In this document: piece by piece, positions 2,110 to 38,115 of the stretch
How positions within the stretch are numbered: position 1 is the stretch's first letter
Layout: the number at the start of each line of letters is the position of its first letter
IMG/VR virus record: IMGVR_UViG_3300014496_000004
Location: 1 to 48,566 of that record
From: a virus
Reading direction: 5' to 3' (one strand)
Length of the DNA: 48,566 nt
Notes under the pieces: model-generated
The model's input: the letters and a program-made list of their open reading frames with translations, nothing else
Told to the model about the DNA's origin: nothing
Database searches by the model: none
Position numbers and translations under genes: made by a program

Positions 2110-2166
2110 ATATGTCCTTCTTTCCAGTTGGCAAGTGTATCGGCTAAAATGAATTAAAAATAGGTA

Positions 2167-2195
2167 TTGACTTTACACAATCATTTGATTATATT
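2167..2195 (+). promoter_or_regulatory. rightward early promoter
   Basis: TTGACT (2167-2172), a 17-base spacer and TATATT (2190-2195); the start is expected near 2202. It reads into the excisionase-like gene at 2297 and the replication genes. An ACACAAT...ATTGTGT pair brackets the -10. Confidence 0.85.
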
Positions 2196-2259
2196 TATTG
2201 TGTTGAAAATGAACAATTGATTGCAAAACATTTACAATAAATTCAAAATCAACACAATA

Positions 2260-2288
2260 AATATAGTATTTAAACAATCAAAAGTCAA
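2260..2288 (-). promoter_or_regulatory. leftward repressor promoter
   Basis: On the minus strand: TTGACT (2288-2283), a 17-base spacer and TATATT (2265-2260), with the start expected near 2253. It reads across the rightward start region into the repressor-like gene at 2109, giving a leader of about 140 bases. Confidence 0.85.
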
Positions 2289-2296
2289 TAGCGATA

Positions 2297-30476: not shown

Positions 30477-30514
30477 CAATAGCTAAATTGCGGTCGCCCG
30501 CAAAATAGCTATTG
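30477..30514. repeat. 38-base inverted repeat ahead of promoter
   Basis: CAATAGCTA-aa-TTGCGG-TCGC-CCGCAA-aa-TAGCTATTG: a nearly perfect palindrome whose core is the second hairpin family (TTGCGG-N4-CCGCAA, 30488-30503) and whose right end forms the first bases of the next -35 box. It may end the late transcript and may also be an operator. Confidence 0.75.
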
Positions 30515-30540
30515 ACTTTACACAATCTTTATCGTATATT
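30512..30540 (+). promoter_or_regulatory. promoter of the post-tail operon, repressor-linked
   Basis: TTGACT (30512-30517), a 17-base spacer and TATATT (30535-30540). The 18 bases TATTGACTTTACACAATC (30510-30527) are identical to the rightward switch promoter (2165-2182), including the ACACAAT half site. It drives the gene starting at 30586. The 200 bases between the fibre stop and this gene hold only the palindrome and promoter. Confidence 0.85.
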
Positions 30541-30585
30541 AACTATATTCAAAGAATAAAAACAATAAATATGAAAAGGATTTAA

Positions 30586-32699: not shown

Positions 32700-33903
32700 T
32701 AGTCTCTACTACCTTCCGACCCATCCTGAGAAGAGTGTTCAACTGTGCGTGACAAGTCCGCCTTACTTTCAACTTCGTAACTACGGAACACCCCCGGCCA
32801 GGTTTGGCGGTGATCCTAATTGCGGACATAGATGGCACCAAACGAAAGCGACTCTTTTACATGACAACAGAAACGCTCTTCACGGGAAACAAGATGAAGT
32901 GATCGGAGAGCGCGGGCAGACGCATATCAATTCAAAGACGCTGCTCTTTTCGTCGACCTGTGAAATATGCGGAATGTGGGAAGGTCAACTCGGATTAGAA
33001 CCCACGGTCGATATGTTTGTCGATCATTTGCTTCAAATCTTCAAAGGTGTGAAGCGAGTGCTTAAGGATGATGGGGTTCTCTTCGTAAATATGGGAGACT
33101 CCTACGGCAATGGTCGGAAGGGGATGGCGAATAAATCGCTTCTCATGGTACCCGAGCGATTCGCAATAGCGATGTGCGAAGATGGATGGACGCTCAGGAA
33201 TAAAATCGTTTGGGCTAAACAGGAATATAATGGCAAAGACAACAAGGTCTACGGCAAAGCCCTACCAAGTTCAGCCACTGATCGACTCTCTTCGGCATGG
33301 GAGATTGTATATTTTTTCAGCAAGACGAGTAGGTGTAAATCACGCATTGCAAGCGTTGGGCTTCCATATACTGAGGAAACCATCGGCAGAATCAATCGAG
33401 CATTCAAACTCATCGAAAAGACCGGGGCTGCTTGCACGGATGAAAACAAAAGCGAATGGGATAAGCCTTGTGAAACTGGGAGCGATGGATTAAGACATCG
33501 TGTCTATTCCAAGTTCCTGAAAGACAAAGCGCCGATAGAGATGGCGAGGAAACAAAGACGGAAGCTGCCCGATCTGTGGAGGATTAACACACAGTCGTTC
33601 CGGGGCGCACACTACGCAACATATCCGCCGCTCTTGCCGTTGCTACCGATTCTAATGTTTACCGATCCTGGAGATGTCGTTTTAGACCCGTTTGCCGGTT
33701 CTGGAACCACTCTTAAGGTAGCTGACTCGCTTAAAAGAACTTCATTGGGCGTTGAGATTGGAGAAGCGAACGTGGAAATCATAAACAACAGAATGAAAGA
33801 GGACGCTGAGACGCATTTCATCCGAAATATCGTCAAGGAATCCTTTCCAGATGTCTACGCAGAACTTTTCCCGGCTGATTCAGTTCAGTTGAGTTGCCTA
33901 TGA
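32683..33903 (+). CDS. orphan DNA methyltransferase, beta class
   Basis: A 406-residue site-specific methyltransferase with a TTG start overlapping the previous gene. Motif IV TSPPY (24-28) precedes motif I DPFAGSGTT (335-343), the order of the beta class. SPPY is usual for N4-cytosine but also occurs in N6-adenine enzymes. A cysteine-histidine pair (NCGHRWH, CEICGMW) lies between. No restriction gene is adjacent, so it probably protects phage DNA or alters gene expression. The recombinase-like gene overlaps its stop (ATGA). Confidence 0.9.
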   Translation: MTVRGNSLYYLPTHPEKSVQLCVTSPPYFQLRNYGTPPARFGGDPNCGHRWHQTKATLLHDNRNALHGKQDEVIGERGQTHINSKTLLFSSTCEICGMWEGQLGLEPTVDMFVDHLLQIFKGVKRVLKDDGVLFVNMGDSYGNGRKGMANKSLLMVPERFAIAMCEDGWTLRNKIVWAKQEYNGKDNKVYGKALPSSATDRLSSAWEIVYFFSKTSRCKSRIASVGLPYTEETIGRINRAFKLIEKTGAACTDENKSEWDKPCETGSDGLRHRVYSKFLKDKAPIEMARKQRRKLPDLWRINTQSFRGAHYATYPPLLPLLPILMFTDPGDVVLDPFAGSGTTLKVADSLKRTSLGVEIGEANVEIINNRMKEDAETHFIRNIVKESFPDVYAELFPADSVQLSCL

Positions 33904-34727
33904 AGCAATGGTTGACGATTGACACGCCTCGCGACGAAGCGCACACACGAAAACTCGTCAGAATGTCGGATAACGTGACATTGGGTTACGTCGCGCGGTC
34001 GTTTGTCGCTTCAAAGCGCCGGTCCGGAGCGAAACCGGAGTACCGAAAGAAGCTGAAACAGTCTCTAGACATTCTTAAACCTCTCTGGAACGAACCGATA
34101 AAGGAATTGAGTCAGAGAAACATAAGAATCTGTTTAGAAGACCAGGTAAAGCGAGTGAGTTGGGAGACATATATACGGCAGAGTCATATCCTGGCAGACT
34201 TCTTTGCATTCGCTAAGGGTAAATCCTTAGTTCTGTATAATTTTGTAAGGGCGCAGCCTTACAAACGGAAAGAGAGATTGAGATTCTTTACAAGGGGTCA
34301 GCTCGACCTGATCTTCAAAGCGTTGCCACAGGGACGGCTTAGAGACGCTTGCTTGTTGATCTACCATACGGGCATGAAGACGGTCGAGTTGAATCAAATC
34401 AAGGGGGTGCGGTCGATGTTTGGCGCGACACTCTTTCTCAAGAGGCGTTCGCTCCCGTGCTCGCCGCATCTCCTTGGTATGATCGAAAGGTACCCGAGAT
34501 ACAATCCACGCAGGATCCCGCACGAGTTCCGAGTGTTCATGTTTAAGATGGAATTCGCCGGAGATATAAGTTACTTGCGAAACTCACACTTCATGCGACT
34601 CTACGTGAACGGTACACCGCACGAGATAATTTCAAAGATTCACGATATAAAGATGGTTGAGAATAAGTTCAAGTTTATGTCGCCATCGAAATTTCATCCT
34701 AATATCGACTTCACTGATTACCTATAA
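33900..34727 (+). CDS. degenerate tyrosine-recombinase-like protein
   Basis: A 275-residue protein (ATG at 33900 in an ATGA overlap). A core-binding-like N-terminal half (about 20-115) is followed by a catalytic-domain-like half. TRGQLDLIFKALPQGRLRDA and YHTGMKTVELNQIK (156-168) match the family's first arginine box with Lys (K160) in place of Arg. SHFMRLYVNGTPHEIISKIHD (229-249) keeps H230-x-x-R233 and a histidine at the LGH position (H248). The nucleophile position, nine residues on, is Phe (F257). Binding without cleavage is inferred. Confidence 0.6.
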   Translation: MKQWLTIDTPRDEAHTRKLVRMSDNVTLGYVARSFVASKRRSGAKPEYRKKLKQSLDILKPLWNEPIKELSQRNIRICLEDQVKRVSWETYIRQSHILADFFAFAKGKSLVLYNFVRAQPYKRKERLRFFTRGQLDLIFKALPQGRLRDACLLIYHTGMKTVELNQIKGVRSMFGATLFLKRRSLPCSPHLLGMIERYPRYNPRRIPHEFRVFMFKMEFAGDISYLRNSHFMRLYVNGTPHEIISKIHDIKMVENKFKFMSPSKFHPNIDFTDYL

Positions 34728-37957: not shown

Positions 37958-37999
37958 TGCCCCTGGCGTAGATTCTTACGTCGGGGCATTTTTGTTGTT
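37958..37999 (+). terminator. intrinsic terminator after cargo pair
   Basis: TGCCCC ... GGGGCA with an inner CGTA/TACG pairing, followed by TTTTTGTTGTT, 43 bases after the stop of the cargo partner gene. Confidence 0.75.
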
Positions 38000-38082
38000 G
38001 ACAAAAGGTATCCGGCTTCCTATATTGAGATGTCGTAAAAGGTGGAGGCTGGTTACTTGCACCTATGAATTTATCGACAATT

Positions 38083-38115
38083 CCCCGGTAGCTCCCCGCT
38101 CCGGGGTTTTTATTT
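38083..38115 (+). terminator. second intrinsic terminator
   Basis: CCCCGG / CCGGGG around a 12-base loop, followed by TTTTTATTT. Together with the terminator 100 bases upstream it isolates the cargo module from downstream genes. Confidence 0.75.

Follow-up and report, generated by a model that had tools for sequence, protein, structure and literature searches.

What does it mean when the two promoters of a phage switch face one another as near mirror images? The question comes from a 48,566-nt stretch of viral DNA (IMG/VR record IMGVR_UViG_3300014496_000004, positions 1 to 48,566; hereafter the window), where two promoters with the same hexamers and the same spacing point at each other between a repressor gene and an excisionase-like gene. 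Searches of IMG/VR with the repressor, the second helix-turn-helix (HTH) protein and the excisionase-like protein gave just one relative at useful identity, IMGVR_UViG_3300028666_000039, along with one 22-residue repressor fragment. All that we say of conservation refers to this single relative, whose DNA is about 81% identical to the window.

Genes around the control region

The order of the genes is that of a temperate phage: an attachment site in a tRNA gene, an integrase, an HTH protein, a repressor, the face-to-face promoters and an excisionase-like gene.

86–126, + strand: att core, the 5' part of a tRNA-Lys(CTT) gene and the predicted integration site; about 40 bp identical in the relative
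242–1372, − strand: tyrosine integrase, gene 3 of the leftward (lysogenic) operon; PF00589 (E 1.4e-13), phrog_1 (E 8e-42)
1375–1797, − strand: HTH_3 regulator of 140 aa, gene 2 of the leftward operon; PF01381 (E 2.5e-12) and phrog repressor families
1801–2109, − strand: probable immunity repressor of 102 aa, a Cro/C1-type HTH with a long C-terminal helix
2297–2527, + strand: excisionase-like HTH_17 protein of 76 aa, first gene of the lytic operon (the Cox/Apl position)

Homology between the window and the relative starts at the att core. Its 38-mer has exact matches in 47 contigs, nearly all of them Ignavibacteria or Bacteroidota metagenome-assembled genomes, and it is these tRNA matches that point to Ignavibacteria as the likely host group. 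A search of genome contigs with the integrase gave no further relatives, the excisionase profile found nothing in 391 genomes of a host-candidate class, and the repressor profile, run against 46 host-candidate genomes, returned just distant HTH genes in unrelated contexts.

Gaps of 2–3 bp separate the repressor, second HTH and integrase genes of the leftward operon, which starts from the promoter PL. The repressor gene comes first with the integrase downstream of it, as in phages of the P2/186 type. We take the 102-aa protein, and not the other HTH protein, to be the immunity repressor; it matches repressors of phrog_8, phrog_4 and phrog_3037 (E 2e-9 to 5e-8) and its AlphaFold model is helical (pLDDT 83.5). 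It is 88% identical in the relative, against 94% for the 140-aa regulator, 84% for the integrase and 91% for the excisionase-like protein. This last protein scores 34.2 bits with TIGR01764 (cut-off 28.8) and also matches PF12728 (E 2.6e-9) and phrog_66, 'excisionase and transcriptional regulator'. The first lytic gene is therefore predicted, again as in the P2/186 type, to encode an excisionase-type HTH regulator, and rightward of it lie a PD-(D/E)XK nuclease-like gene, a DnaB helicase gene, a terminase gene and the virion genes. AlphaFold models of the repressor and the excisionase-like protein, built on alignments of two rows each, had no significant fold match in the Protein Data Bank. The repressor ATG is preceded by a Shine-Dalgarno sequence, AAGAAGGA; the excisionase-like gene (ATG at 2297) has no evident one in either phage. 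The original prediction had read this region as a phage switch with converging promoters. The genes on both sides, repressor, HTH protein and integrase to the left, excisionase-like and replication genes to the right, fit that part of it, with a lytic and a lysogenic promoter of a temperate phage facing each other.

A promoter pair and its partial mirror

2167–2195, + strand: PR, predicted rightward lytic promoter, TTGACT-17-TATATT (−35 at 2167–2172, −10 at 2190–2195)
2260–2288, − strand: PL, predicted leftward lysogenic promoter, TTGACT-17-TATATT (−35 at 2288–2283, −10 at 2265–2260)
2190–2213, + strand: left mirror arm, TATATTTATTGTGTTGAAAATGAA, holding the conserved GTGTTG at the predicted start
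2242–2265, − strand: right mirror arm, 88% complementary to the left arm
2221–2237, no strand: central near-palindrome, TTGCAAAACATTTACAA, fully conserved in the relative

The same TTGACT, the same 17-bp spacing, the same TATATT, a shared 16-mer and a common dyad had all been described for this pair, and all are present, on both strands. The 16-mer, TATATTTATTGTGTTG (TATATT and the same ten bases after it), lies at 2190–2205 (+) and 2250–2265 (−), and the dyad falls exactly at 2227.5. Transcription is predicted to start at about 2202 from PR and 2253 from PL, 51 bp apart, which agrees with the overlap of about 50 nt expected of the two transcripts. Where the description went too far was in calling the symmetry exact. 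That word suits the region around the −10 elements but not the pair as a whole, in which PR and PL are identical at 34 of 61 positions. Even so, the palindrome at 2227.5 matches at 37 of 65 half-positions, the best of its size in the window (the next independent centre reaches 32).

How much of this is informative? The hexamers and their spacing say little, since TTGAC[AT]-17-TATATT occurs six times in this phage (2167, 2260 on the − strand, 30512, 37998, 38838 and 40010), and near-equality is what one would expect of any two such standard promoters. Outside the hexamers 22 of 49 positions agree between the arms (shuffle p = 0.04). What is significant and informative in the symmetry is an identical run of 11 bp, TATTGTGTTGA, immediately after the −10 element, a length reached in 10 of 100,000 shuffles.

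In the relative, TTGACT-17-TATATT is found exactly, and in the same place, at both PR and PL. Four multi-base blocks are identical in all four arms of the two phages: TTGACTTT, TATATT, GTGTTG and TGA. In the four bases that separate TATATT from GTGTTG, the relative's arms differ from each other and also from the window, and the relative's mirror identity beyond the hexamers is at chance (16 of 49, p = 0.34). What has been kept is the promoters with a short element downstream of each, and not the perfect mirror.

A candidate operator and a third promoter

2175–2181, + strand: candidate half-site ACACAAT in the PR spacer, also in the segment shared with P3
2197–2203, − strand: candidate half-site ACACAAT (ATTGTGT on the + strand) at the PR start
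2252–2258, + strand: candidate half-site ACACAAT at the PL start
30512–30540, + strand: P3, TTGACT-17-TATATT, sharing the upstream half of PR (TATTGACTTTAYACAATM)

ACACAAT occurs seven times in 48.5 kb, counting both strands, and four of the seven copies are within the three TTGACT promoters (2175, 2197 on the − strand, 2252 and 30520). The motif was picked after the fact, with p = 0.0005 taken alone and about 0.10 once corrected for any 7-mer, and as an operator it is a lead. The copies at 2175 and 2197 (−) form an inverted pair flanking the PR −10 element, 22 bp from centre to centre, an arrangement like that annotated in P2, whose operators O1 and O2 flank the −10 of Pe at the same 22-bp distance. 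PL has no copy in its spacer, and at two sites the relative's counterparts are looser (ACACTTA and ACACTAT). For the excisionase-like protein we looked between the promoters for direct repeats of the Cox/Apl type, with 10–11 bp periods; the best chains were no better than shuffles in window and relative (p 0.31–0.61). A 10–11 bp periodicity of CAA, seen by eye, was dropped for the same failure to beat shuffles.

The upstream half of PR is repeated at 30502–30553, where it forms part of P3. This third promoter has an orthologue at 32858 in the relative, and in both phages a gene downstream of it encodes the same predicted single-TM protein. PR and P3 both carry TTTACACAAT in the window and both carry TTTATACAAT in the relative, the same C-to-T change, and this parallel change, in a comparison of two genomes, is suggestive of one shared reader. 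The two phages also agree on which of the six promoters have which −35: the same three read TTGACT in both, and the other three read TTGACA. When TATTGACTTTAYACAATM was searched for in IMG/VR, eight matches came up beyond the relative's two copies, none with TATATT at promoter distance. The relative also has an extra 151-aa gene (L013:1585-2040) between P3 and the single-TM gene, which in the window follows P3 directly. One could go further and see the two equal convergent promoters and the distant P3 (30.5 kb) as a single regulon, in which one small repressor, reading the same half-site, would need no Cro-like partner to govern the lytic and lysogenic genes and the late region alike. We think this unlikely.

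Three features lie away from the control region. At 37998–38111 there is a candidate small RNA, with a TTGACA-17-TATATT promoter followed by some 85 nt that include a stem and an intrinsic terminator (stem at 38083–38106, then a T run); it is 97% identical in the relative, and an Rfam search of the window, this candidate included, found no match. A GC-rich palindrome, GCGCAACGTTGCGC, is present in 10 copies with up to two mismatches, where 0.18 would be expected (207, 3964, 7867, 32352, 38733, 40083, 40405, 43164, 43234 and 45922), and in nine copies with up to one mismatch in the relative. It is near control level in four genomes of the host group, and so is phage-specific. Finally, a second, shorter integrase-like protein (33894–34727; phrog_1 E 2.8e-12, Phage_int_M below cut-off) is encoded downstream of a DNA methyltransferase gene.

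Comparison with known switches

The convergence of PR and PL had been thought unusual enough to suggest a new principle. This is not supported: P2 (Pe and Pc), 186 (pR and pL) and HP1 (PR and PL) all have convergent promoters, and further phages have symmetric pairs that converge. In P2-like phages the lytic and lysogenic promoters face each other 40–60 bp apart, a range that includes our predicted 51 bp; in those phages the repressor's operators cover the lytic promoter, and the sites for Cox or Apl lie either between the two starts or over the lysogenic one (PMC7498355). The annotated records of P2, 186 and HP1 also give the same order, from att and integrase through the repressor (C or CI) and the convergent promoters to the Cox/Apl gene, so that order, convergence and an excisionase-type gene in first place are all common ground. 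The mirror is not. Against 34 of 61 here, identity is 17 of 52 in P2, 17 of 67 in 186, and 27 of 68 and 12 of 55 in HP1; these are background values, so symmetry is not part of that class. Searches of a phage collection found no homology to P2 C or Cox for the repressor or the excisionase-like protein, and the capsid protein (MCP) is nearest to Marinitoga viruses (Marinitoga camini, 33% identity), and also to Firmicutes siphoviruses. The locus thus appears to fit the P2/186 type by layout and distance rather than by descent, and the phage to lie outside the Peduoviridae lineage. Lambdoid CI/Cro switches resemble it in that one intergenic region controls both the repressor and a lytic promoter, but the lambda promoters PR and PRM stand back-to-back (PMC6593788) and those here converge.

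If not from P2 and its kin, where might the symmetry come from? A scan of IMG/VR for TTGACT-17-TATATT pairs facing each other at 40–70 bp gave six loci, the relative among them, and none of those with readable flanking genes looked like a switch region. Face-to-face pairs with the perfect consensus, TTGACA/TATAAT, gave 71 loci. In 16 of these 71, from about seven lineages, mirror identity beyond the hexamers reached p ≤ 0.01, where 0.7 would be expected. Several symmetric pairs adjoin Cro/C1-type HTH genes and have the same palindrome in both spacers, AGTAC-N8-GTACT or TTAC-N8-GTAA. One group of uncultured phages (IMG/VR L110, L113, L127, L147 and others) is like the present locus in having identical convergent promoters 40–70 bp apart, extra mirror identity and small HTH regulators, and unlike it in its TTGACA/TATAAT hexamers, in a palindrome that sits within each spacer instead of downstream of the −10, and in unrelated repressors, which are akin to those of Flavonifractor phage Castelnaud and of Streptococcus prophages. 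Divergent consensus pairs share extra sequence too (19 of 119 among the matches listed). Symmetry of paired promoters therefore probably arises repeatedly, in either orientation, as a side effect of a regulator site that both share.

Weighing the explanations

The arms could also have been made alike by replication itself, if the polymerase switched templates within an imperfect inverted repeat (quasipalindrome correction); the extra identity would then mean nothing for regulation apart from the promoters themselves. Such an origin would suit the absence of a total mirror excess in the relative, and it would suit positions 2196–2199 and 2206, where the arms of the window agree and those of the relative agree at one of the five, both differing from the window. 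It sits badly with GTGTTG and TGA, identical in all four arms, and with the extra sequence so commonly shared by paired phage promoters in both orientations, and we consider it unlikely. Control at the level of RNA, each leader forming a 5' hairpin or pairing with the opposite transcript, is very unlikely. The first 59 nt of the PL leader do fold somewhat better than shuffles (z = −2.3), but the PR leader does not (z = 0.2), and in the relative the PL leader falls to z = −0.8 while the PR leader takes a different fold; on these scores we rejected RNA hairpins as the main explanation. An invertible DNA segment was also set aside, with 28 bp between the inner arms and no invertase noticed. That spacing is shorter than in the invertible promoters known to us.

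There remains the mechanism first proposed for this locus, in which RNA polymerases from two equal promoters meet head-on, and their collisions, together with the antisense overlap of the transcripts, produce a bistable choice. The promoters do converge, with a predicted overlap of about 50 nt, and interference of this kind is real in 186, where the sitting-duck route accounts for most of a 5.6-fold reduction of pL by pR, and where the repressor activates pL by silencing pR (PMC6593788). Sitting-duck interference, however, is least between promoters of equal strength, and collisions become fewer when the separation is short (PMC6593788). In a Monte Carlo simulation that placed the starts 51 bp from each other and used generic parameters, not those of this phage, equal promoters interfered with one another just 1.3–1.8-fold, while a 10:1 pair imposed about 3–8-fold on the weaker promoter. 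Moreover, interference alone, without feedback, carries no memory. Bistability from interference between equal promoters is on these grounds very unlikely. Should the apparent equality of PR and PL be real, we would expect the decision to lie with the repressor and the excisionase-like protein and not with collisions.

How the switch might work

In our preferred reading, this locus probably controls the choice between lysis and lysogeny in an uncultured, temperate tailed phage of Ignavibacteria. Its layout is face-to-face like those of P2, 186 and HP1, and its memory would lie mainly in proteins. The mirror would arise because both promoters fit the phage's common consensus and each has, immediately after its −10, a copy of one regulator site. 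PR would drive the excisionase-like gene and the replication genes, and PL the repressor, the second HTH protein and the integrase. The repressor would bind in and near PR, at sites that recur in part at PL and P3; this would shut off lytic transcription and lift interference from PL. The excisionase-like protein may in turn repress PL, tipping the balance back. Two promoters of nearly equal strength at 51 bp should hinder each other little by direct polymerase interference. Memory would then come mainly from the proteins, and we think repressor binding a likelier source of it than polymerase collision. Promoter activity, start sites, operator identity and the direction of control are all, in this account, read from the DNA.

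We know of no studied phage switch in Ignavibacteria. The locus would extend the convergent layout of the P2/186 type to a siphovirus-like phage of that group, and its near-equal promoters may offer a natural case in which to measure how much interference is left when strengths are matched. It also suggests a rule that can be tested, and whose pattern turns up again in about seven other phage lineages: mirror symmetry of paired promoters would mark a regulator site common to both.
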